From: Candidatus Altimarinota bacterium
GTDB taxonomy: Bacteria > Patescibacteriota > Gracilibacteria > UBA4473
Assembly: GCA_021736215.1 (NCBI GenBank)
Contig: JAIPGI010000002.1
Coordinates: 62,001-126,000, forward strand
DNA length: 64,000 nucleotides
Direction: 5' to 3'
Below, piece after piece: positions 2,467 through 63,213 of the stretch. Made by a program: the position numbers and the translations under genes. The notes beneath the pieces are model-generated. The model worked only from the letters and a program-made list of their open reading frames with translations, was not told the origin of the DNA and did no database searches. Every line of letters starts with the position of its first letter. The first letter of the stretch is position 1.

Positions 2467-4236
2467 ATGAATCAGAAAGAACCCGTTATCGTCAAGGTCT
2501 CCGGACCGCTTGTTGTCGCCGAAAATATGCACCACTGCAAAATGTATGAAGTGGTTCGTGTAGGAGAAGAAGGTTTGGTCGGAGAAATTATCCGTTTGGA
2601 ACGAGGAAACGCTTTTATTCAGGTATACGAAGAAACCGCTGGGATTGGTCCAGGGGAAATTGTGAAGCCTACCGGAAAAACACTTTCTGTGGAGCTTGGC
2701 CCAGGCTTGCTTGAAACCATTTATGATGGAGTTCAGCGTCCTTTGAAGGTGCTCGAAGAGAAATCAGGACACTTTCTTGCTCGTGGTATTAGTGCAGATG
2801 GTTTAGATCACGCCAAAAAATGGGATTTCGTTCCCACCGTTTCTAAAGGAGATATGGTGAGTGAAGGAGATATTATTGGAACGGTTCAGGAAACTTCTCT
2901 TATTGAGCATAAGATTATGGTGTCTGTGGGTATCAAAAATGCCAAAGTAGAATCTATCGAAAAAGGACAGCATACGGTTTTGGATAAAATCGCAGTGCTT
3001 GTTGATGAGAATGGAACAAAACATGAGTTGACGATGCATCACTATTGGCCAATCCGAAATCCTCGAAAAGTTTTAAAAAAACGAGTACCAGAAGAACCGC
3101 TTCGAAGTGGATGTCGATCTATCGATATGTTCTTTCCTATTACCAAAGGAGGTGCTGGATGTATTCCTGGACCATTTGGATCAGGAAAGACCGTTACGCA
3201 GCAGTCATTGGCAAAATACTGTGATGCTCAAGTGATTGTATATATCGGATGTGGAGAGCGTGGAAATGAGATGACAGAAGTATTGAATGAATTCCCTCAC
3301 TTGACCGATCCAAATAGTGGAGAACCACTCATGCGTCGAACCGTGATGATTGCAAACACTTCCAACATGCCTGTGGCTGCTCGTGAAGCCTCTGTGTACA
3401 CAGGAATTACTATTGCTGAGTATTACCGAGATATGGGATACAATGTTGCCTTGCTGGCAGACTCAACCTCTCGTTGGGCAGAAGCAATGCGTGAAATTTC
3501 AGGACGTCTTGAAGAAATGCCAGGAGAAGAAGGATATCCTGCTTATTTGGGGTCAAAAACAGCAGAGTTCTATGAACGAGCAGGAGCCGTTAATTGTTTG
3601 GGATCGGAAGGTCGTCAGGGATCGCTCACTGTAGTTGGAGCCGTATCGCCTCCAGGAGGGGACTTGTCAGAGCCTGTTTCTCAAAATACTCTTCGTGTGA
3701 CAAAGACTTTCTGGGGATTGGATGCAAAATTAGCTTATCAACGACACTTTCCAGCAATTAACTGGCTCAAAAGTTATTCACTGTACTTACCAAATCTGGA
3801 TAAATACATGAAGGAAAATGTTGCCTCTGACTACTGGGATGTGCGAGGTTTGGGAATGAGTTTGTTGCAACAAGAATCGAAATTGGAAGAAATAGTGAAA
3901 TTGGTTGGACCAGATGCGCTTTCTGTTCGTGAGAAATTGATTCTTTTGGTAGCGAAGTCTATTCGTGAAGACTTCTTGTATCAGGATTCTTTCAATCCAG
4001 AAGACGCATACACGACCAATCAGAAACAATACCACATGTTGAAAACTATTTTAGCTATCTATAATGAAGGTTTGAAATTGGTGGATCGTGAAGATTTTGA
4101 TTTTGCAAAGTTAGAAGCACTTCCAAGTATTCAGAAAATTGCCAAAGTAAAAGAATTGAAAATGGATGAAAGTGGAAAAGCAACCGCTTTTGAACACGTC
4201 CAGTCTGAAATTGCAAAAGAGATTGCTTCGCTCTAA
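2467..4236 (+). CDS. atpA: V/A-type ATPase catalytic subunit A
   Basis: 589 residues, the normal length for the catalytic A subunit of V/A-type rotary ATPases, which couple ATP hydrolysis or synthesis to ion transport at the membrane. The N-terminal beta barrel begins IVKVSGPLVVAENM. The A-subunit-specific Walker A GPFGSGKT is at residues 235-242, followed by YIGCGERGNEM and the LLADSTSRWAEAMRE segment. The family's usual operon partners (I, K, E, C, F, B, D) are absent: the gene on the left points away, and a strong terminator follows only 23 bases after the stop. The ATG follows a possible promoter by about 27 bases with no Shine-Dalgarno sequence. It may work with subunits encoded elsewhere or be an orphan. 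The family call is firm. Confidence 0.95.
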   Translation: MNQKEPVIVKVSGPLVVAENMHHCKMYEVVRVGEEGLVGEIIRLERGNAFIQVYEETAGIGPGEIVKPTGKTLSVELGPGLLETIYDGVQRPLKVLEEKSGHFLARGISADGLDHAKKWDFVPTVSKGDMVSEGDIIGTVQETSLIEHKIMVSVGIKNAKVESIEKGQHTVLDKIAVLVDENGTKHELTMHHYWPIRNPRKVLKKRVPEEPLRSGCRSIDMFFPITKGGAGCIPGPFGSGKTVTQQSLAKYCDAQVIVYIGCGERGNEMTEVLNEFPHLTDPNSGEPLMRRTVMIANTSNMPVAAREASVYTGITIAEYYRDMGYNVALLADSTSRWAEAMREISGRLEEMPGEEGYPAYLGSKTAEFYERAGAVNCLGSEGRQGSLTVVGAVSPPGGDLSEPVSQNTLRVTKTFWGLDAKLAYQRHFPAINWLKSYSLYLPNLDKYMKENVASDYWDVRGLGMSLLQQESKLEEIVKLVGPDALSVREKLILLVAKSIREDFLYQDSFNPEDAYTTNQKQYHMLKTILAIYNEGLKLVDREDFDFAKLEALPSIQKIAKVKELKMDESGKATAFEHVQSEIAKEIASL

Positions 4237-36018: not shown

Positions 36019-37053
36019 ATGGACAACAAAAGTGAAAGCATGAAACGATGGCAGCAAATAACAAATGTGCCAACAATGACTCAAGGAGTTCCTGAATATT
36101 TTGGAGAAGATGCTCGTATCTTACGCAAAGTAATCAGATCAATGGAAGACTGCTTAGAAGACATGGGCTTTGATCAACTTATGTCTGGACCCCTTGTTTC
36201 TCATCAAATATTTCTGAATAATTTGGAATATCTTGGTAAAAGATTTATGGATAATCTTGTTTATTCTCAAGTTAATGGAGAAAACGGATCATCAGTTTTA
36301 TTACCAGAAGGTACTATGAAATCTTATGATTTCATTCGCAGATCAGAAATGAAGAAAGCCAAGGTATTTTATTCGGCTTTTTTTACGAGAAATGAGGATC
36401 CAGTCGATGTGAGTAAGGGAAAAACGCGTTGTTTTTGGCAGATTGGATTTGAGATTTTCAATCATCCAATATTTCAATCAAGTATTGAAGCAATAAATGC
36501 TACTTATTCATTACTTATTTCAGCAGGACTTGACGATGCTTATATTAGAATTACGGATAAACGAATCTTAAAAGGACTTATTGAATCGTATTCAGAGAAG
36601 GATCGTGAAATTATAATGTCCATTATCGATAAGGCAGATGATAGCTCTTCGAAATTTAGAGAACTTTATTCCGTTTCTGGGGGGGAAAGTAAAAGTGTCG
36701 TAGAGGATATTACAGAATTACTCGAAATGATTAGTGTCCCGAATCAAGATATTTTGTCAAAACTGAAAGGAGTTGTAAAAAAATCAAAACAATCTCAAGA
36801 AGGGATTGATAATATATCAAGAATTCAGGAAAAATTAGGCAATAATGTTACTATGAAAATAATTCCATTTATGGCAAAAAGTTGGGATGCTTGTGACAAA
36901 CTCATGTTTGACGGAAGATATCCTGGCTATGATTCAGCAATTTGTGGAGGGGGAAATCTGACTTATAACGGATATAGACCAGATTCTCCCAAAAGTGGTG
37001 TAGGTGTGGGGGTAACAAGAGTATTTGACATTATTAAGAGCAAAATGTTCTAA
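36019..37053 (+). CDS. HisRS-like (HisZ-type) class II synthetase paralogue
   Basis: 344 residues from the ATG at 36019, with AAAGGAG eight bases upstream. The HisRS catalytic fold is recognisable: motif 2 FYSAFFTRNEDPVDVSKGKT then CFWQIGFEIF, the Gly-rich loop SAICGGGNL, and motif 3 SGVGVGVTRVFDI. The histidine signature L-D-Y-Y-T is absent and the protein ends right after motif 3, without the anticodon-binding domain. This is the layout of HisZ and other HisRS-derived proteins. No hisG lies nearby, so a HisZ role is doubtful. It may activate an amino acid for something other than translation. Confidence 0.7.
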   Translation: MDNKSESMKRWQQITNVPTMTQGVPEYFGEDARILRKVIRSMEDCLEDMGFDQLMSGPLVSHQIFLNNLEYLGKRFMDNLVYSQVNGENGSSVLLPEGTMKSYDFIRRSEMKKAKVFYSAFFTRNEDPVDVSKGKTRCFWQIGFEIFNHPIFQSSIEAINATYSLLISAGLDDAYIRITDKRILKGLIESYSEKDREIIMSIIDKADDSSSKFRELYSVSGGESKSVVEDITELLEMISVPNQDILSKLKGVVKKSKQSQEGIDNISRIQEKLGNNVTMKIIPFMAKSWDACDKLMFDGRYPGYDSAICGGGNLTYNGYRPDSPKSGVGVGVTRVFDIIKSKMF

Positions 37054-37060
37054 TGGCGTC

Positions 37061-37813
37061 ATGCAAATTATTATACTCCACGATGAACAAAATACGTTCT
37101 CAAATAAACATTCAGGATTCTCACTCTTTGTAAAACACAAACGAGTGAGAATCCTATTTGATTTTTCACATAAGAAAGATATTTTTAAAAATGCAAAAAA
37201 AATTAATTTAGATATCAATAAAGATATTGATTTTTTTGTGGTGAGTCATAGTCATATTGATCATATTGCTAATTTAGAACATTTAAATCTTCAAAAAAGA
37301 AAACCGTTGATATTGCACCCACAAGCACTTTTACCGAAATTTTTTAAAGGAGAAAATATTGGAATTACAAAACCTATACTTGATTCATTAAGTCAGTTTA
37401 AAGTGCTTCCATCCAAGGAACCTTTTTTTATTAATAAAGATATAGTATTTATGGGGGAAATAAAAAGAGGGAATAGTAAACATTTTGGAGAAAATTTTTT
37501 TGGAGACGACTACATACTTGACGATTCCGCTCTTTTGATTAATACAAATAAATATCCAGTACTTGTTACAGGTTGTTCACATAGTGGAATTATTAATATA
37601 ATCAAACAGGCTGATCAAATTTTTGATAGAGAGGTAAAAGTGGTTATTGGCGGATTGCATATTTTTGAAGATGGAAATGATGAAATTTTTGAATTTTTAA
37701 AAGAAAGGGGAATAAAAATAATTTTTGGTCATTGCTATGATGAAAAAAATGGAAAAAAATTAGAAGAAATGAATGCAGTTAAAATGAAAACATTAGATTG
37801 TTTTGAATTTTAG
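37061..37813 (+). CDS. MBL-fold hydrolase (COG1237-like)
   Basis: 250 residues from the ATG at 37061. Metallo-beta-lactamase signature HSHIDHI; then TGCSHSGIINII and VVIGGLHIFED, the set typical of the COG1237 branch (related to methanopterin-pathway MptB-like and similar hydrolases). Two metal ions are expected. It starts seven bases after the HisRS-like gene and is very AT-rich. The substrate is unknown. Confidence 0.8.
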   Translation: MQIIILHDEQNTFSNKHSGFSLFVKHKRVRILFDFSHKKDIFKNAKKINLDINKDIDFFVVSHSHIDHIANLEHLNLQKRKPLILHPQALLPKFFKGENIGITKPILDSLSQFKVLPSKEPFFINKDIVFMGEIKRGNSKHFGENFFGDDYILDDSALLINTNKYPVLVTGCSHSGIINIIKQADQIFDREVKVVIGGLHIFEDGNDEIFEFLKERGIKIIFGHCYDEKNGKKLEEMNAVKMKTLDCFEF

Positions 37814-46254: not shown

Positions 46255-47613
46255 TTACACCAACTTCAAAATCTCTTTTTTCAAATTTTTTACGTTTCCA
46301 CCACGGTCGACAACAAGGGGAATATTGTCCATAAGAACTGTGCTGAGTCCTAATTTCCTGGATTCTTTGGCAACGACTGCGATAGCGGCAGCCTTGAGTT
46401 CGGTAGCGACGATATCTCCTTTTTTTATTTTTTTGAGATCTTTTATCAGGAGTGGACGGACAGAAAGATTATTGCTGATACCTGTGATGTGGCAGGCATA
46501 TGTTTTTTCTAAATATTTTTCCAAAAATGGAAGAGCTTTCTCTGGAGCAGTGGTTGTGAGAAAAACGCGTTTTCCTTTGATGGGCGCGAGGGGTTTTGGT
46601 CGCAAAACAGTTGTGGCAATGCGAACATTAGGATTTATTTCTCGAATGCGATGAAGAATACTTTTGAGTTTTCGTTCACTCACGAGGAAGTCCTCACACA
46701 TATTTACGATAATTAAATCGGCGTAGAGAATCCGAAGCGGGGTCAAATATCCTTCCAATATTTCCAAAGGTTGTGTGGCGTCCATCACGAGAATGACTTT
46801 ATCGGTTTTTATTTCCGGGACGGTGGCGCCGCTTCCCTCAATGATTACCGTTTTTACTTCACGGGAAACTTCTGCCATGCGAACGCCTCTGTCGAGAACG
46901 GTAATCATGGCTTTACCACTCATACCTCCTCCACATCGACGACAGCCGAAAGTGATGACTTTTGCGGTGAGGGCATCTTCAAAACAATCTGACGATGCAT
47001 GCATTCCTTGAGCGTCTATGCCAAGCAAATAATCGACGTTGATGTGCAGTTTGTCTCCACGAACAACTAGAGGATTATCTGGTCCACCACGACTTAGAGT
47101 TATAATAGCTGGTTGACGTTTTGCTTCCCTGAGGGTGCGACCGATAAACCCTCCAATAGCGGTTTTCCCAATACGTTTTCCCGTTCCCCATATGGCGAGA
47201 GATTTTTTACTCAGAATTTTTTTAAAGCGAAGTGGATCAAATTGGAAATCTGATCCTTTGTAAATAGCTCCGTGATAAAGAATATAGCTGGCTATTTCAA
47301 ACCTCGTCATGTAGTCCATAATCGGTTCATCAGAAAGATCCAAAACTATTTTTACGGGATGGAAAGTAAGGATTTGGTCGAGTCTTTTGACATCAGGTTT
47401 ATTCGCATGATTGGCGAAATATACAGTGTAGGGGAGCGCTTTTTGAACATCTTGAGGAGTTCCTATTTTTTCAGTTCCCCCAATGAAAATCAGATATTTG
47501 ATTTGGTATCGTTTGGCAATTTGAGCGAGAGATGCTTTGAGATTTGGTAAATAATGCTCTCCATCGACGAGACAGGCGGTAATAGGAAGTGGAAGAGATT
47601 TATTCTGTACCAT
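46255..47613 (-). CDS. cpgS: Cyclic 2,3-diphosphoglycerate synthetase-like protein
   Basis: 452 residues, close to the length of the methanogen enzyme. It begins with the family signature TACLVDGEHYLPNLKASL; the P-loop is SLAIWGTGKRIGKTAIGGF, followed by ITLSRGGPDNPLV, FGCRRCGGGMSGKAMI, VIIEGSGATVPEI and the C-terminal LSVRPLLIKDLKKIKKGD. In methanogens this enzyme closes 2,3-diphosphoglycerate into cyclic 2,3-DPG, a thermoprotectant and phosphate store, using ATP. The gene for the preceding step lies five bases upstream. The pair is very rare in bacteria. Assignment rests on motifs and pairing; activity is inferred. Confidence 0.85.
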   Translation of the reverse strand: MVQNKSLPLPITACLVDGEHYLPNLKASLAQIAKRYQIKYLIFIGGTEKIGTPQDVQKALPYTVYFANHANKPDVKRLDQILTFHPVKIVLDLSDEPIMDYMTRFEIASYILYHGAIYKGSDFQFDPLRFKKILSKKSLAIWGTGKRIGKTAIGGFIGRTLREAKRQPAIITLSRGGPDNPLVVRGDKLHINVDYLLGIDAQGMHASSDCFEDALTAKVITFGCRRCGGGMSGKAMITVLDRGVRMAEVSREVKTVIIEGSGATVPEIKTDKVILVMDATQPLEILEGYLTPLRILYADLIIVNMCEDFLVSERKLKSILHRIREINPNVRIATTVLRPKPLAPIKGKRVFLTTTAPEKALPFLEKYLEKTYACHITGISNNLSVRPLLIKDLKKIKKGDIVATELKAAAIAVVAKESRKLGLSTVLMDNIPLVVDRGGNVKNLKKEILKLV

Positions 47614-47618
47614 TTGTA

Positions 47619-48506
47619 TTATTTCTGGGGGAGAGAGAGTTGATATATCTTTTCGAGAACTTCTTTTTCGGCTTGATTCAAGCTGTAATTTTCAATGATC
47701 GGAACGTCGTTTTTTTGAGCCTGAGCTACCAAGAAATCACGAATAAGTCGGATTTCCTTAAAATATTTCAGGTATTTTGTTTTGGCACGGTTCGCATTCT
47801 GAAGTTGTCGGGTAAAGAAATGTTGTCGGTGTGTTTCTGGTTGGTTGACGTCCAAAAGAACCTGAATAATGGTCGCTTTGGATTTATATTTTTTCAAAAA
47901 ATCCATTTCTCCAGGAATCAGATGAACTCCCTCAATAACGATACTTGTTTCTTCCTTAATGGCTCGTTTAACGATTGCTTCGACTCCATAAATTACTTTT
48001 TTTGATTGGGAAAGGAACCCATAAATTACGCCATCTTCATGTGATTTTACGAGTTTTACGTGATTTCCTGTTTCATAGGTTGAGACATTAAGGAGTGGTT
48101 CGATTTCTGCAGGGAGAAATCGTCTGACCACTTCTCGTACAGAATCGGTACCGAGAATTTGATTGATTTCGAGAAGCCATCCGAGTCGAACTGCTAGGGT
48201 AGAAGTTCCAATTCCCGTTCCTCCTCCGATAAGAATAATCACGGGCTTGGTTCGTTGCATTATTTTTTGCCATTGTTGGTGTCGAGAAACTAAGTCGGGG
48301 TATTTACTTTTTAGGAGCGTCAATACTTTTTTCTTCAGTGTTTTTTCATCCTTTTTATCCTGTCCCATTTCTTCCCAAATATTATGTGTAATTTGATAGG
48401 CTTTATAACGGGGGATTCCTGTGCGTACCAGGGAACGAGCCAGTAAATCACTACTATAGTAGGGTTGCGTGAGATCGGAAACGGAAATAGGAACGTGTTT
48501 TTTCAT
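47619..48506 (-). CDS. 2-phosphoglycerate kinase-like protein with ATP-cone domain
   Basis: 295 residues. Residues 1-90 form an ATP-cone-like domain (LLARSLVRTGIPRYKAYQIT). The kinase part has the unusual P-loop VIILIGGGTGIGTSTLAVRL, the GTSTLA form of archaeal 2-phosphoglycerate kinases, then QILGTDSVREVVRRFLP (IxxTDxVRExxR family signature), and IVIEGVHLIPG. The expected reaction is 2-phosphoglycerate + ATP to 2,3-diphosphoglycerate, the substrate of the synthetase encoded next. It is the first gene of the leftward pair; its start is 101 bases from the divergent exchanger gene. Confidence 0.87.
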   Translation of the reverse strand: MKKHVPISVSDLTQPYYSSDLLARSLVRTGIPRYKAYQITHNIWEEMGQDKKDEKTLKKKVLTLLKSKYPDLVSRHQQWQKIMQRTKPVIILIGGGTGIGTSTLAVRLGWLLEINQILGTDSVREVVRRFLPAEIEPLLNVSTYETGNHVKLVKSHEDGVIYGFLSQSKKVIYGVEAIVKRAIKEETSIVIEGVHLIPGEMDFLKKYKSKATIIQVLLDVNQPETHRQHFFTRQLQNANRAKTKYLKYFKEIRLIRDFLVAQAQKNDVPIIENYSLNQAEKEVLEKIYQLSLPQK

Positions 48507-48607
48507 GAGAAGTAAATCTTTTTATTATATCATATCTATGGGAAAAATCAAAGATTTTGAACACATAAATGGTGTTTTTTTCTTCTTTCACGGTACAATA
48601 AGAAAAA

Positions 48608-51722: not shown

Positions 51723-54700
51723 ATGTCCGACAATATTTTTTCCAAATTCACAAATCTTTATAGTTTGTCGAAGACGTTGAGGTTTGAGTTGAAGCCGGTG
51801 GGGAAGACTTTGGAAAATATGAAAAAACAATTGGAGTATGACGAAGAACTTCAAACTTTTTTATATGACCAAGAAATTGAAAATGCTTATCAAACGCTGA
51901 AGCCCGTTTTGGATCAAATCCATGAAGAGTTTATTACTCGAAGTTTGGAATCAAAAGAGGCGAGAGAAATTGATTTTTCGGAATTTTTTGAAAAATATAA
52001 AACACAAGAAGACGATAAAGGCGAGAAAACTTTACGAAAAGCTATAGGGGAAACCTATGAGAGAGGGGAATTATTTTTTAAGAATGAATATTCGTCTTTA
52101 AAGTGGCAAAAGGGATCGAAGGAAGCAAAAGGCGCTGTGATCTTGGAATGCCAAGATGTTCTTGAAATACTCAGACAAGACTACACGAGAGATAAAAAGA
52201 TACAAGAAGCGCTTGATGTATTCAAAGGATTTTTTACTTACTTTGGCGGATTTAATCAAAACAGAGCAAATTATTATGAAACCGAAAAAGAAAAAGTGAC
52301 TGCTATTGCAACTCGAATCGTACATGAAAATTTGCCAAAATTTTGCGATAATGTTCTCCTATTTGAGGATCGATCAAGTGAATATTTATCAGCCTACAAA
52401 GTGCTTCAAGAAATGGGGAAAAGTTTGGTAAATAAGGAACAAGAAAAACTTGTTCCTGTTGATAAAAACTGGTTCGATATCCGTTTTTTTAATGCTTGTT
52501 TATCTCAAAAAGGCGTTGAGATTTACAATGACCTGATAGGAAACGCAAACTTTTTAATTAATCTTTACAACCAATCTCATAACAAGACTGAAAATTTTAG
52601 AAAGCTTCTGCCTTTTAAAACCCTGTATAAACAGATTGGTTGCGGAAAGAAAGAAGCATTATTTTTTGAGCTTACTCACAACACAAGGTTGGAAGCTGAA
52701 GAAGCAAGAAAAGAAGGAAAGAATGCTTTTTCGGTGGAAGAGGTTTTGAATTTAGCCGAAAAATCTGGAGAGAAGTATTTTCAGAGTGAAAATAACGATA
52801 GCATCATCAATACAGTGACAGAATTTCTGAAATATATTTCAGAAAAGAAAGATTATGACGGTGTGTACTGGTCAAAAGCCGCCATGAATACGATTTCCAA
52901 TAAATATTTTGCAAATTATCACACGCTCAAAGATCGACTCAAAGAAGCAAAGATTTTTCAAAAACCAAGCAAAGGAAGTGAGGAAGATACAAAAATTCCA
53001 GAGGCGATTGAGCTTTCAGGACTTTTTGCTGTACTCGATGCTACAGAAGATTGGAGAACAACATTTTTTAAGGAGAGTTTGGTAAAAGAATTAGCGACTA
53101 CTGAAGGAAATAAAGAGGAAAATGAAAAAAGATCAAAAAGAAGGAATATTATCGATCATGCCAAGACCCCATCGAAAGCACTGTTAGAAATGGTATTTGA
53201 TGACATCAGAGGAAATGCACAGAAATTTCTTGATTTGACAGACTCGATTTCGAAATTGAAGGATTATAAAAGTAAAGAAGGAAAGGAAACAATCAAACAG
53301 TGGATGGATTACGCATTGGCGGTGAATCAAATGTTGAAGTATTTTTTCGTAAGAGAAAACAAAATTAAAGGCACACCGCTCGATACAGAGATTTCAGAGG
53401 GACTCAAGAATATAGTTTTTGAAGCGAAACTAGAGAATGACACAGAGGTAAATTGGTTCAAATGGTACGATGCTCTACGAAATTATCTCACTAAAAAATC
53501 GAAAGATGATGCGAAGAAGAATAAATTGAAGTTAAATTTTGAAAATAGTACATTAGCAGGAGGTTGGGATGTCAATAAAGAAACGGCAAATGGGTGTGTT
53601 CTTTTAAGAAGTACAGAAGGGAAAATATTTCTATCAGTAATGCATAAAAAACATAATATCCTTTTTCAGAAAGAATGGATTGAGGGCAGAGGGAAAAACA
53701 AAGATGTGCGAAAAAATCCACTTTATGATATCTCGGATGGATGTGAAATTTTTGAAAAAATGGAATATAAACAGATTGCAACACCTACGGGAGTAGGTGG
53801 TTTTGTTAGAAAATGTTTTGGTACGGCACAACAACTCGGATGGGAATGTTACGAAGATTGTTTGAATAGTGATGGAAAGATTATCACAAAAAATGATGAA
53901 GTTAAAAACCTCGAAAGTCTCATTAATTGCTACAAGAATTTTTTTGAAAAATATGAGAAAGATGGCTTTAAATATAAAGATTTTAATTTTGTTTTCCGAG
54001 ACAGTAAAAAATATGAAAAACTCACTGATTTTTTTAGCGAGGTAGAAATTCAAGGATATAAGCTTAGTTTCTCAAAAATAAATAAAGATGTGTTAAATTC
54101 TCTTGTAGAAGAAGGGAAAATCTACCTTTTTGAAATAAAAAACCAAGATTCGAATAGTGGAAAAAAAGATGGGCACAAAAACAATTTACACACCATTTAC
54201 TGGCATGCTCTTTTCCAAGAAATTAAGAACCGCCCAAAGCTTAATGGAGAAGCAGAAATTTTTTATAGAAAAGCAATATCAGAGAAAGATATCAGAAAAA
54301 AAATTCATAAAGGAAAAGAAATTATAGAAAATTATCGTTTTTCAAAGGAAAAATTTGTTTTTCATGTTCCTATCACTCTTAATTTTTGTTTAGATAACAA
54401 AAAAACGAATGATCTTGTAAATTCACTTCTCCCTTCATTATCACATATTCATTTCTTCGGCATCGACCGAGGAGAAAAGCATCTCGCTTACTATTCACTT
54501 GTAAATCAAAAAGGCGAGATTGTAGATCAAGGAACTTTGAATATGCCTTTTCTAGGAAGTATAAAAAAAGAAAAGTATTTTTACGATAAGAAAGAAGATA
54601 AGTGGAAATCAAAAGAGGTAAAATGTTGCAATTATAATGATCTTTTGGATGCAATGAGTTCCAATCGTGATATGGCACGGAAGAACTGGCAAACCATCGG

Positions 54701-55886
54701 CACCATTAAAGAACTCAAAGAGGGATATATTTCTCAAGTAGTCAAAAAGATCTCAGACATTGCCACGAATGAAGATCATCCTGCCTTTATCGTACTGGAA
54801 GACCTAAATACGGGATTCAAGCGAGGACGACAAAAGATCGAAAAGTCAGTTTATCAAAAATTTGAATTGGCTCTTGCGAAGAAGCTGAATTTCCTCGTGA
54901 ACAAAACCGCACAAAATGGGGCAATTGGATCCGTAACAAAAGCAATTCAACTCACTCCTCCTGTGCAGAATTACCAAGACATTGAGAATCGAAAGCAGGT
55001 TGGAGTCATGCTCTACACGCGGGCAAATTACACTTCTCAAACAGATCCTGTGACGGGTTGGCGAAAGACTATTTATCTACAATCTGGACCAGAAGAAACC
55101 ACTTATACTAAAGATGGCAAAGTTAAGAACAAAAGTATAAGAGATCAAATTTTAGAAAAATTCACAGATATTCGTTTTGACGGAAAAGATTATGTTTTTG
55201 AATATAAGACTTATATTGCCGACAAAAATACTGGTGAAGTTTTTGTTGAAAAACAGTGGAAGATGTATTCAGGAATTAACGGGAAAAGTTTAGATCGATT
55301 TAGAGGTAAAAGGGGCGAAGACAAATATGAATGGAAAAACGAACCTCAAAACATTGTGTATATTTTGGAAAAAGTGTTGGCAAAGTTTAATAAAAATAAG
55401 TCTTTGCTGACGCAAATAAAAGAAGGCGTAGAGTTAACAAAGTATGATGAGTATACCGCTTGGGAATCGCTTCGTTTCGCTATTGAACTTATTCAACAAA
55501 TCAGAAATACAGGCAATGAAGGAGATGAACGAAATAATGATTTTATTCTTTCTCCTGTACGAGATGAACAAACAGGAAAACATTTTGACTCTCGGGAATA
55601 CTGGGATAGAGAGCAAAAAGGTGAAAAGGTGAATCTGCCAACATCAGGAGATGCCAATGGGGCTTACAATATCGCACGCAAGGGATTGTTGATGAATGAA
55701 CACATTCGTTCTTGGATTGAAGCGGAGAGACCTAAATACGATAAAAGTACAAATGATTTGAATCTCTTTATTTCTGAGTCAGAATGGGATTTATCTTTGG
55801 TAGATAAAAAAGCATGGAAACAACAACTTCAGAAATTCTCTTCACGAAAAGCATTGGAAGGAGTGAAAGAAAAGCGAAAAAAATAA
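51723..55886 (+). CDS. cas12a: Cas12a (Cpf1), type V-A CRISPR effector nuclease
   Basis: 1387 residues, slightly larger than common Cas12a proteins (about 1230-1350). N-terminus FSKFTNLYSLSKTLRFELKP. The processing region contains FVFHVPITLNF with His881. RuvC residues: Asp915 (FFGIDRGEKHLAYYSL), Glu1026 (FIVLEDLNTGFKRGR) and Asp1310 (TSGDANGAYNIARKG). A Nuc-domain DEQTGKHFDSREYWD lies between RuvC II and III. It should mature its own crRNAs and cut DNA beside a T-rich PAM. The PAM-contact loop (residues 683-699, KQIATPTGVGGFVRKCF) departs from the usual Lys-Met-Leu/Ile-Pro-Lys sequence. The adaptation genes and the array follow on the same strand. Confidence 0.98.
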   Translation: MSDNIFSKFTNLYSLSKTLRFELKPVGKTLENMKKQLEYDEELQTFLYDQEIENAYQTLKPVLDQIHEEFITRSLESKEAREIDFSEFFEKYKTQEDDKGEKTLRKAIGETYERGELFFKNEYSSLKWQKGSKEAKGAVILECQDVLEILRQDYTRDKKIQEALDVFKGFFTYFGGFNQNRANYYETEKEKVTAIATRIVHENLPKFCDNVLLFEDRSSEYLSAYKVLQEMGKSLVNKEQEKLVPVDKNWFDIRFFNACLSQKGVEIYNDLIGNANFLINLYNQSHNKTENFRKLLPFKTLYKQIGCGKKEALFFELTHNTRLEAEEARKEGKNAFSVEEVLNLAEKSGEKYFQSENNDSIINTVTEFLKYISEKKDYDGVYWSKAAMNTISNKYFANYHTLKDRLKEAKIFQKPSKGSEEDTKIPEAIELSGLFAVLDATEDWRTTFFKESLVKELATTEGNKEENEKRSKRRNIIDHAKTPSKALLEMVFDDIRGNAQKFLDLTDSISKLKDYKSKEGKETIKQWMDYALAVNQMLKYFFVRENKIKGTPLDTEISEGLKNIVFEAKLENDTEVNWFKWYDALRNYLTKKSKDDAKKNKLKLNFENSTLAGGWDVNKETANGCVLLRSTEGKIFLSVMHKKHNILFQKEWIEGRGKNKDVRKNPLYDISDGCEIFEKMEYKQIATPTGVGGFVRKCFGTAQQLGWECYEDCLNSDGKIITKNDEVKNLESLINCYKNFFEKYEKDGFKYKDFNFVFRDSKKYEKLTDFFSEVEIQGYKLSFSKINKDVLNSLVEEGKIYLFEIKNQDSNSGKKDGHKNNLHTIYWHALFQEIKNRPKLNGEAEIFYRKAISEKDIRKKIHKGKEIIENYRFSKEKFVFHVPITLNFCLDNKKTNDLVNSLLPSLSHIHFFGIDRGEKHLAYYSLVNQKGEIVDQGTLNMPFLGSIKKEKYFYDKKEDKWKSKEVKCCNYNDLLDAMSSNRDMARKNWQTIGTIKELKEGYISQVVKKISDIATNEDHPAFIVLEDLNTGFKRGRQKIEKSVYQKFELALAKKLNFLVNKTAQNGAIGSVTKAIQLTPPVQNYQDIENRKQVGVMLYTRANYTSQTDPVTGWRKTIYLQSGPEETTYTKDGKVKNKSIRDQILEKFTDIRFDGKDYVFEYKTYIADKNTGEVFVEKQWKMYSGINGKSLDRFRGKRGEDKYEWKNEPQNIVYILEKVLAKFNKNKSLLTQIKEGVELTKYDEYTAWESLRFAIELIQQIRNTGNEGDERNNDFILSPVRDEQTGKHFDSREYWDREQKGEKVNLPTSGDANGAYNIARKGLLMNEHIRSWIEAERPKYDKSTNDLNLFISESEWDLSLVDKKAWKQQLQKFSSRKALEGVKEKRKK

Positions 55887-55922
55887 TACGGAATAAACAT
55901 TAAATCCTGATTAAGTCCCTAG

Positions 55923-55951
55923 TTCTTAAAATGGAAGAAATCTGCTATAAT
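55923..55951 (+). promoter_or_regulatory. Promoter of the cas4-cas1-cas2 genes
   Basis: TATAAT at 55946-55951 preceded by TGC (extended -10), with a weak TTCTTA-like -35 17 bases upstream. It lies in the 82-base gap after cas12a, so the adaptation genes can be transcribed without the effector. The ATG follows 17 bases later. Confidence 0.6.
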
Positions 55952-55968
55952 GTGCAGATTTTTTCACA

Positions 55969-56520
55969 ATGGAATCATACATTTCCATATCAACCATCAA
56001 CGACTTCGTGTTCTGTCCACGATCAATTTACTTTCATCAGTTGTATCAGAAATACAATGAAAACATGTATCACGAAAGACCCCAAAAATCTGGGAAACTT
56101 GCTCATGAGACGATCGATAAACAAATATATTCCACAGAAAAGAAGTGGCTCCAAGGAATCGATGTTTACAGTCAGCAGTACGGAATTTGTGGGAAAATAG
56201 ACCTCTTCAATAGTGACACAGGGGCTCTGGTAGAGAGAAAAAACAAAATCAAACAAATCTACGACGGATATAGATACCAAGTGTATGCGCAAATGTTTTG
56301 TCTTCGAGAAATGGGATATGAAGTGAAAAGTATTTTTCTTCATTCACTTTCTGATAACAAACGCTATGAAATTCCGATTCCAACCCTTTCGGAAGAACAA
56401 GAATTTGCTGAAATAATTCAACAAATGAAAACCTATAAAATCACGGATCCCATCTCCCCAAATCCCAATAAGTGCGCACAGTGCATCTATAGGGAGTTGT
56501 GTGACGCTTATAAACCCTAA
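55969..56520 (+). CDS. cas4: Cas4 nuclease (CRISPR adaptation)
   Basis: 183 residues, RecB-type nuclease that trims prespacers and helps choose those with a correct PAM. Four iron-sulfur Cys: Cys16 (FVFCPRSIYFHQLY) and Cys169, Cys172, Cys178 (KCAQCIYRELCDA). Nuclease residues: the early His in KLAHETID, Asp in GICGKIDLF, and the E-x-K motif LVERKNKIKQ with the downstream YRYQVYAQMF helix. cas1 begins two bases after the stop. Confidence 0.95.
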   Translation: MESYISISTINDFVFCPRSIYFHQLYQKYNENMYHERPQKSGKLAHETIDKQIYSTEKKWLQGIDVYSQQYGICGKIDLFNSDTGALVERKNKIKQIYDGYRYQVYAQMFCLREMGYEVKSIFLHSLSDNKRYEIPIPTLSEEQEFAEIIQQMKTYKITDPISPNPNKCAQCIYRELCDAYKP

Positions 56521-56522
56521 AA

Positions 56523-57476
56523 ATGCTTTCTCTTCCTGATTTTATGGCAAAACAAATTCTTTTCTTGGAATCGCAGGATGCCAAGGAACTTTCATTTCAA
56601 AATGACAATTTAATCTTGAAAAACGAAGGGAAAAAAACGGATCAAATTCCATGTATCAAGGTATTTGCCATTTTTATAGTTGGAGAATTCACACTTACTA
56701 TGGTTCTTATTAGAAAATTATTGAGTTATGGAATTACGATTTTTCTCTTAAAAAAGAATTATCAAACCTATGCTGTTCTGGGAAATGAAACGGAAGGGAA
56801 TGTGCTTTTGAGGCGAAAACAGTACGAAGGGAAAAATTCGTTTGAAATAGCAAAAAAAATCGTTGATGCAAAACTTCAAAACCAAGCAGATATTTTCAGA
56901 AAAACTCGGTTGGAAGCACTGAAAGGAACTAATACCCAAGAACAAATTGGAAAGATCCGCTCCAATATACTCATGGCGAAGGATATTGCTTCTCTCATGG
57001 GGATTGAGGGGAGTGCGGCAAAAATGTTTTTCTCCTCTTATTTTTCTTCTATGAATTGGCATGGACGGAAACCGCGTACCAAATACGACATTCCCAATGT
57101 ACTACTGGATATTGGGTATACATTTCTTTTTCATTTTATTGATGCGCAATTGCGTTTGTATGGATTTGATACATATGTGGGGAATCTCCATCAGGAATTT
57201 TATCAACGGAAATCTCTTGTGTGCGATATGGTTGAACCCTGTCGTTGTATTGTCGATAAAGCCCTTTTGAAGGCATTTAATCTCAAGCAAATCAATGAAA
57301 AAGATTTCAGCATTCATCAAGGACAATATATCCTGAAGTACAAGACCGCCAGTAAATACTCTCGTATTTTCTTGGAAGCGATTATGAGTGAAAAAGAAGG
57401 TATTTTTAAATACATTCAAAGCTTTTATAGAGCCGTAATGAAAGATTCTCTTGAGTTTGAAACATTCCATTTATAA
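56523..57476 (+). CDS. cas1: Cas1 integrase
   Basis: 317 residues. The catalytic metal ligands are in place: Glu162 (LMGIEGSAAKMFF), His223 (GNLHQEFYQR), Asp235 and Glu238 (LVCDMVEPCR). The N-terminal beta domain and the helical C-terminal domain have normal proportions. With Cas2 it inserts new spacers at the leader end of the array. It starts two bases after cas4 and is followed by cas2 after 14 bases. Confidence 0.97.
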   Translation: MLSLPDFMAKQILFLESQDAKELSFQNDNLILKNEGKKTDQIPCIKVFAIFIVGEFTLTMVLIRKLLSYGITIFLLKKNYQTYAVLGNETEGNVLLRRKQYEGKNSFEIAKKIVDAKLQNQADIFRKTRLEALKGTNTQEQIGKIRSNILMAKDIASLMGIEGSAAKMFFSSYFSSMNWHGRKPRTKYDIPNVLLDIGYTFLFHFIDAQLRLYGFDTYVGNLHQEFYQRKSLVCDMVEPCRCIVDKALLKAFNLKQINEKDFSIHQGQYILKYKTASKYSRIFLEAIMSEKEGIFKYIQSFYRAVMKDSLEFETFHL

Positions 57477-61560: not shown

Positions 61561-63213
61561 ATGAAGTTTTTGAAAATCACACTCACCCCTAGTGACACTA
61601 TTGGAAATATTGTTGAGATATTTGGGAAAACAGAAGCCAAAAAGATTATTTTCCTCTGTCCTCGAAATTTTTCGCTTCTGTCTGACATGGCTTTTCTCAA
61701 AAAACTTCGAGAAGAAGCTCTTATCCATCATAAAAAAATAGCGTTTATTTCTCTCCAAAAATTTGCACGAGATGTGCTGAAACGCCAGCAGTTTGAGGTC
61801 TATTCCAAAATAGTGAAGGACTACGAGGAAGGGGAAGAAAAAACAGTAAAAGATTTTGGAGACACTCTAGAAGCAACAAAAAACATTCTCAAAGAAGAAC
61901 CTATCGAAAAGCCAATTGCTAAATCAACGGAAAAACCAAAATTTGAAACCCATAAAATTCAAAATCCAGAAGAGTCAAAACCCATTCAAGGGAAAGTTTT
62001 TTTTGGTTTTTTGGCTGTTATTTTGATTCTTATCGGACTGTGGTTGTGGGTGTCTCCTCAAGTTGTTATAACCCTCAAGCCCAAGGTGTCCGTAGTTCCC
62101 ATTACTCAGAATGTTTTGGTCACATTTCCAGAGACTATTGTAAGGGAGCAAGATAAATTTTTACCACAAATACAAGGAATATTTGTGCAAACGGAAGTTG
62201 CAGGGACGGAAGTTTTTCCGTCTACGGGACGAAAATATGATTTGACGAATGCAAAAGGGAAAGTGACGATTTTTAACGAAACCTCAAAGCCAAAATTCTT
62301 TATTCCATCTCGTCTCTCTACGGCGGATGGGGTGATTTTCCGTTTTACTCAAAATATAACGATTCCTCCGAAAGATGAAAAAGGGGCAGGACGATTAGTT
62401 GTAGATATCGTAGCAGACGAATACGATGAGAATGGGAAACCTATTGGTGAGCGAGGGAATATTGATGCGGGAACAGATCTCATTTTCCCAGCCTTGGGTT
62501 CTGTGGCACAAGAATTGTATTATGCCAAGGCAAATCAAGGGCCACTGGTAGGAGGTTCTACACTCACACATTATTTTATTCAGGAAGGGGATTTTGAAGG
62601 GGTCAAAAATACACTCGTTGAAAGTTTTCGTGTTCGAGGAATAGAGTATCTCGAGAATGAAATTCGGAATCGTTCTGAACGCGAAGGGAAACGATATGTT
62701 CTTCTTGATGATCCAAGACTTTTGAGCCATGAACTTTTGGAGGCAACATTTCCGAATTATGTTGTAGGGCAAGAAACGCAAACCTTTGAAGTTCAGGCCA
62801 AACTAAAGCTTTCTGGAATAGTTTTTGACCAAAAACAAGTTTCAGATTTCTTAGAAGAAAAACTCAAACAAACCCAAGATCACCGAAAAAAACTTATTAA
62901 TATTGATCAAACTTCTGCGAGTTATAGAGTCTTGGAATCTGAGAAATTAGAGGAGGAGAAATGGGTGAAATTATCCGTTGAAATGCAGGGAGTAGAAATG
63001 TTGGATATTGATTCGGGTTCAGATGAAGCCAACGAATGGCAACAAAGTATCAAAAAAGAGATTGCAGGAAAATCTATTTCCGAAGCCAAAAGCATCCTGA
63101 TTAATTTCCCAGAAATTGAATATGTGGGAAACATAAAAATTTCTCCTTTTTGGTCGGAACAAGTTCCTTCAAATTTTAACCAGATTGAATTCAAAATACA
63201 GAGAGCGGAGTAG
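61561..63213 (+). CDS. Baseplate-J-like membrane protein
   Basis: 550 residues. A cytoplasmic part of about 140 residues (KKIIFLCPRNFSLLSDMAFL; charged Glu/Lys linker) precedes a single membrane helix near residues 147-167 (VFFGFLAVILILIGLWLWVS). The outer part has a baseplate-J-like core: FVQTEVAGTEVFPSTGRKY, FIPSRLSTADGVIFRFTQNI, GNIDAGTDLIFPALGSVAQE. Membrane-anchored versions are frequent in candidate-phyla genomes, with no known role and no phage genes beside them. TACATT at 61547-61552 may be the -10 box. Confidence 0.6.
   Translation: MKFLKITLTPSDTIGNIVEIFGKTEAKKIIFLCPRNFSLLSDMAFLKKLREEALIHHKKIAFISLQKFARDVLKRQQFEVYSKIVKDYEEGEEKTVKDFGDTLEATKNILKEEPIEKPIAKSTEKPKFETHKIQNPEESKPIQGKVFFGFLAVILILIGLWLWVSPQVVITLKPKVSVVPITQNVLVTFPETIVREQDKFLPQIQGIFVQTEVAGTEVFPSTGRKYDLTNAKGKVTIFNETSKPKFFIPSRLSTADGVIFRFTQNITIPPKDEKGAGRLVVDIVADEYDENGKPIGERGNIDAGTDLIFPALGSVAQELYYAKANQGPLVGGSTLTHYFIQEGDFEGVKNTLVESFRVRGIEYLENEIRNRSEREGKRYVLLDDPRLLSHELLEATFPNYVVGQETQTFEVQAKLKLSGIVFDQKQVSDFLEEKLKQTQDHRKKLINIDQTSASYRVLESEKLEEEKWVKLSVEMQGVEMLDIDSGSDEANEWQQSIKKEIAGKSISEAKSILINFPEIEYVGNIKISPFWSEQVPSNFNQIEFKIQRAE

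Follow-up and report, generated by a model that had tools for sequence, protein, structure and literature searches.

Two adjacent leftward genes lie near the middle of the right half of the window, the whole 64,000-nucleotide stretch of DNA that was analysed, with a gene for cyclic 2,3-diphosphoglycerate synthetase (cDPGS) located downstream of one for 2-phosphoglycerate kinase (2PGK), five bases apart. This arrangement had been described in a sequence-only reading of the same DNA, and the coordinates proved exactly as that reading gave them; the motifs it quoted, namely the GTSTLA P-loop, TDSVREVVRR, CLVDGEHYLP and GTGKRIGKTAIGG, were likewise all present. The features on which the argument turns are the following.

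47619..48506, minus strand: 2PGK gene, 295 aa (NCBIfam NF003259, E=4.2e-74; alignment; AlphaFold model with a P-loop kinase fold)
47614..47618, minus strand: intergenic gap of 5 bases (sequence; same gene order in four related genomes)
46255..47613, minus strand: full-length cDPGS gene, 452 aa (phmmer to PDB 8ORK, E=2.7e-113; ligand residues; AlphaFold model)
48524..48551, minus strand: possible sigma-70-like promoter, TTGATT-16-TATAAT, upstream of the 2PGK gene (weak; 10 of 12 consensus positions match)
L157:1489-2208, plus strand, on contig 13 of the window's genome: cofactor-dependent phosphoglycerate mutase (dPGM)

Both genes look intact, and the 5-base gap would be consistent with a single transcript for 2PGK and cDPGS; sigma-70-like sites occur in the region at the count expected by chance. 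Upstream of the pair lies a divergent Na+/Ca2+ exchanger gene, followed by a SulP permease gene and a Cas12a-Cas4-Cas1 locus, and downstream lies a MATE transporter gene, none of these window neighbours having an obvious tie to phosphoglycerate. The CRISPR locus is of type V and occupies positions 51723-57476 (Cas12a of 1387 aa, TIGR04330, with Cas4 and Cas1). Elsewhere, the window encodes a V/A-type ATP synthase catalytic subunit (2467-4236, plus strand; PF00006, PF16886, PF22919), a 344-aa histidyl-tRNA-synthetase-like protein that ends 8 bases before a metallo-beta-lactamase-like protein (36019-37813, plus strand) and that may be a paralogue with another role, and a 550-aa open reading frame for which no Pfam match was found (61561-63213, plus strand). 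On contig 13 of the same genome, the isoleucyl- and valyl-tRNA synthetases (L159:801-4499 and L158:824-3919, both minus strand) are both interrupted by a histidine-phosphatase domain, PF00300 (E=9.8e-31 and 2.1e-36, respectively), inserted at a different point in each; family relatives show PF00300 or TIGR01258 matches inside frames of about 700-1570 aa, which are probably the same fusions.

The 452-aa product of the downstream gene is, by homology and predicted fold, a full-length cDPGS for which catalysis is predicted. It aligns over residues 13-448 of 452 with the crystallised enzyme of Methanothermus fervidus (PDB 8ORK/8ORU; phmmer, E=2.7e-113), to which it is 43% identical end to end, and also matches 9SXB (E=5.1e-108), a third solved cDPGS structure that is 95% identical to a Thermococci sequence. 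The N-terminal domain of cDPGS, of 127 residues, has been reported as unlike other known structures (PMC10690619), and this distinctive domain is covered by the full-length match. The same study lists the residues of the M. fervidus enzyme that touch ADP, Mg2+ or 2,3-diphosphoglycerate (2,3-DPG), or that shield charge (PMC10690619); all 11 ligand residues that could be mapped are identical to those of 8ORK (E48, K49, K146, R147, K150, T151, D209, E307, T355, E405 and K407). Position 335, given as P335 in PMC10690619, is Phe in the deposited chain and Leu in the window, and was not mappable. The AlphaFold model of the window protein (mean pLDDT 89) superimposes on ligand-bound 8ORU with a TM of 0.89, the next-best enzyme being LpxK (TM 0.41). 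Sequence match, ligand residues and predicted fold thus agree on the identity that had been proposed for this gene.

The kinase is a divergent member of its family, and its activity on 2-phosphoglycerate is predicted. It matches NF003259 over residues 13-289 (E=4.2e-74), and this match bears out its naming as 2PGK, albeit at 249.7 bits, below the curated (equivalog) whole-protein cut-off of 343 bits; an actinobacterial 2PGK copy, at 319.3 bits, likewise falls under that cut-off. A search for sequence relatives of the window 2PGK in the PDB found none. The AlphaFold model matches the P-loop nucleotide-kinase fold, and alignment with archaeal and actinobacterial 2PGKs shows that the TDxxREVxR and EGxHxxPG motifs of the P-loop kinase core are kept. 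In the Walker A motif (P-loop), Lys is replaced by Thr (GIGTST); the same replacement (GVGTSS) is found in the 2PGKs of cDPGS-bearing Methanobacteriales genomes, whereas the Lys is present in those of Thermococci, Thermoplasmata and actinobacteria. The sequence-only reading had also assigned an ATP-cone to this protein. However, even with a threshold of E=5 Pfam detects no such domain in the protein (in the one actinobacterial 2PGK scanned it is recognised at 9.1e-7), the beta-hairpin motif is replaced in the alignment, and the N-terminus of the model consists of a disordered stretch at residues 1-17, the region of the beta-hairpin, followed by four helices. By alignment and model, the ATP-cone is degenerate and not supported as a working domain, and altered regulation of the kinase would be expected.

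The pair itself recurs in related bacteria. Full matches to both proteins occur in the same three of 60 relatives (the window's genome, G010 and G012), the two other 2PGK matches among the 60 being kinases of about 200 aa with 25-27% identity, and two Peregrinibacteria, from 18 genomes of their order, carry the operon in the same order. The 2PGK and cDPGS genes are adjacent, and identically ordered, in five of five candidate-phyla genomes, with the 5-base gap of the window and gaps of 9-21 bases or an ATGA overlap in the four others. The candidate-phyla loci read share no flanking gene, and nothing close to the pair could be recognised as degrading, transporting or regulating cDPG; conservation is limited to the 2PGK and cDPGS genes themselves. 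In comparison with the closest relative, which belongs to another genus and has 79% protein identity, the cDPGS gene differs at 56% of its third and 10% of its second codon positions (50% and 11% in the 2PGK gene), which indicates purifying selection on both. A 380-genome sample of the window's phylum, which did not include the four other known carriers and may miss rare ones, yielded only partial cDPGS matches of 68-131 positions besides the window. No viral contig encoding a relative of the pair was found. The two of these partial matches that were read, L086 and L087, are not cDPGS: they encode CobW/HypB-like P-loop proteins of 440 aa, from other candidate-phyla bacteria, whose weak profile match covers only part of the P-loop domain, L086 being CobW/HypB in Pfam. 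The L086 gene (L086:901-3179, plus strand) lies 5 bases before a carbamate-kinase-like gene, as read from sequence, and its weak matches to the cDPGS profile could lead to its being mistaken for cDPGS.

The pathway had been taken in the sequence-only reading to be otherwise archaeal, and a wider survey does not sustain this. The best 80 loci from a scan of named genomes came mostly from Methanobacteriales and also from Thermococci, Thermoplasmata, one Altiarchaeales genome and one actinobacterial metagenome-assembled genome; from these loci, and with strict peptide patterns, the pair had seemed rare in bacteria, a view that a profile search of 297 genomes overturned. The cDPGS gene is present in four of five genomes of the actinobacterial assembly's family, and a cDPGS-family match at E <= 0.001 was obtained in 167 of 297 genomes sampled from its phylum (here termed actinobacterial after one member, 'Actinomycetes bacterium'), most of these matches being full length with E below 1e-100. 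In 17 of the 21 actinobacterial loci inspected, a 2PGK gene is adjacent to or overlaps that of cDPGS, with cDPGS first. Given the 167 matches and the 17 linked kinases, the pathway cannot be described as archaeal apart from a lone bacterial case, and it seems that its bacterial use has been overlooked rather than being unique to the window's cell. The ligand residues are kept in 18 further aligned proteins, with one exception, at E305. One actinobacterial locus (L059:449-8970, plus strand) holds a cofactor-independent phosphoglycerate mutase, cDPGS, 2PGK and a transaldolase-like gene, and between the mutase and cDPGS a glycosyltransferase, a glycogen-debranching-like enzyme and a phosphodiesterase can be read from the sequence; this neighbourhood is possibly a cluster for sugar storage and cDPG.

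In a tree of cDPGS sequences, those of the candidate phyla group as a single clade (support 100/100) that is sister to the Altiarchaeales protein (100/98), within a group whose other sequences are all archaeal (88/86). A clade uniting candidate-phyla and actinobacterial cDPGS is rejected by the AU test (p=3.5e-4, about 0.0004, with one long-branched actinobacterial row left aside; p=1.1e-5 for the same constraint with fewer rows). The position beside Altiarchaeales and the rejection of a single bacterial clade suggest transfer from archaea, and we infer that an archaeon was probably the source of the synthetase in the Gracilibacteria/Peregrinibacteria lineage. Within the class to which the Altiarchaeales genome belongs, only two of 29 genomes have a full-length cDPGS, so that the donor is uncertain. 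For 2PGK, the candidate-phyla proteins again form one clade, on a very long branch, which groups weakly with archaea in a first tree (68/79) and with actinobacteria in a second (90/82), and AU tests reject neither a grouping with Methanobacteriales (p=0.34) nor one with archaea (p=0.51).

These observations allow a model of what the pair may do. The pair would constitute a two-step operon in which 2PGK converts 2-phosphoglycerate and ATP to 2,3-diphosphoglycerate, and cDPGS uses a second ATP to convert this to cyclic 2,3-diphosphoglycerate (cDPG), with release of phosphate; the product would serve as a high-energy reserve of phosphate and carbon, or as a polyanionic solute acting as counter-anion, and not as a heat protectant. 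Both enzymes are encoded adjacently in one genome that also possesses enolase and dPGM for the supply of 2-phosphoglycerate, and with enolase present the genome should be able to handle this metabolite. Heat-loving methanogens form cDPG, a protective phosphate compound, with the same two enzymes. The presence of a phosphoglycerate mutase gene near the homologous actinobacterial pair is counted as further support, and storage of phosphate and energy has been put forward as a function of cDPG (PMC10690619). We consider it quite probable that the locus is such a cDPG operon, with a product that stores phosphate or energy or acts as a polyanion and with a synthetase of archaeal origin. The earlier proposal that such cells make cDPG is well backed: the sequences, the residues of the active site, the predicted fold, the operon arrangement and the joint occurrence of the genes all favour it, and the cells most likely would make it as a phosphate or energy store or counter-anion. 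The role of thermoprotectant, which was part of the same proposal, fares less well. A growth temperature of about 43 C can be estimated from the composition of 32 window open reading frames, a rough figure, as the formula was made for whole proteomes, and the names of two related bins point to fen and groundwater samples; heat protection would thus not be a natural role for cDPG in this mesophilic-looking bacterium with a small genome, and is unlikely.

Other explanations of the pair can be envisaged. The enzymes may have drifted, acting on a related phosphorylated three-carbon acid or producing trace amounts of 2,3-DPG or cDPG as a regulatory signal, and the sub-threshold score, long branch and degenerate ATP-cone of the kinase are all features with which a changed substrate could be reconciled. 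However, every mapped contact of cDPGS with 2,3-DPG and ADP is unchanged, the partner kinase is linked to it in all five genomes, and the P-loop Thr is common to the 2PGKs of cDPGS-bearing Methanobacteriales, such that drift is unlikely. It could also be supposed that 2PGK primes dPGM with its 2,3-diphosphoglycerate cofactor while cDPGS drains or stores the excess, since dPGM is clearly encoded in the window's genome, whose 93%-complete assembly yielded no mutase of the cofactor-independent type. However, in each of the four remaining genomes with the pair the mutase is cofactor-independent and no dPGM scores above cut-off, while G004 and G007, two relatives, have dPGM without the pair; mutase type and pair presence are not associated, and cofactor supply was rejected as a general explanation and is highly improbable. 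Mutase type varies within the family, the genus-mate G001 having the cofactor-independent enzyme.

A further scenario would have archaea-associated cells run the pair in reverse, harvesting cDPG from a host to yield ATP, phosphate and 2-phosphoglycerate or other three-carbon skeletons. We know of no cDPG importer, and none was identified here. The synthetase has archaeal affinity, and candidate-phyla bacteria parasitic on methanogens have been reported (PMC10936435); however, at the concentrations found in cells the synthetase reaction has been described as exergonic in the forward direction (PMC10690619), and reversal is highly improbable. As the cDPGS has its closest outside relative among archaea, the contig might be suspected of archaeal contamination or mis-assembly. 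However, the pair lies within 64 kb that also hold Cas12a, Cas4, Cas1, SulP and MATE genes, its GC content is ordinary (0.41 versus 0.39), the same operon occurs in four other bins, in one of which (L007) it stands beside ftsA/ftsZ-like and pilB-like genes, as read from sequence, and the top archaeal copy from the scan reaches just 51% identity. Contamination is very unlikely given the bacterial genes around the pair, and it was rejected on bacterial context, GC content and recurrence in other bins.

Hyperthermophilic methanogens have been stated to be the only organisms with cDPG (PMC10690619), although thermophilic ammonia-oxidising archaea are reported to carry cDPGS genes (PMC5797428; PMC7554672). 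Within the open-access literature searched, no report of bacterial cDPG, or of cDPG in candidate phyla, Actinobacteria or Altiarchaea, was found. As far as checked, the novelty lies in which hosts carry the pair, in the reversal of the gene order and in the degeneration of the regulatory domain, the enzymes themselves being of known kinds. If the model holds, synthetase-kinase operons in candidate phyla and many actinobacteria would make cDPG a far wider solute, and the question would move from heat protection to phosphate or energy storage. The locus extends, in a way open to testing, a pathway that has been described as archaeal, though the finding is tempered by how widely actinobacterial genomes carry it; established assays exist with which to test both proteins directly.

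The locus can be set beside the closest known systems. With the M. fervidus cDPGS, the window protein shares full-length homology, including the N-terminal domain, the eleven ligand residues and the predicted fold; it differs in its bacterial host and in Leu at position 335, found in five of five candidate-phyla proteins where the M. fervidus chain has Phe. Here cDPGS directly follows 2PGK, whereas most of the methanogen loci examined showed no 2PGK next to cDPGS. The archaeal 2PGKs of NF003259 align with the window protein over nearly its whole length and, in Methanobacteriales, share its P-loop Thr; unlike them, the window kinase scores below the family cut-off and has an N-terminal ATP-cone region that Pfam does not recognise. 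The actinobacterial pairs (L059, L122-L124 and L165-L185) resemble the window's in having the two enzymes adjacent or overlapping (17/21) and conserved ligand residues, but differ in that cDPGS comes first, the P-loop Lys is kept, the ATP-cone is recognisable (in the one copy scanned) and their cDPGS forms a separate clade.
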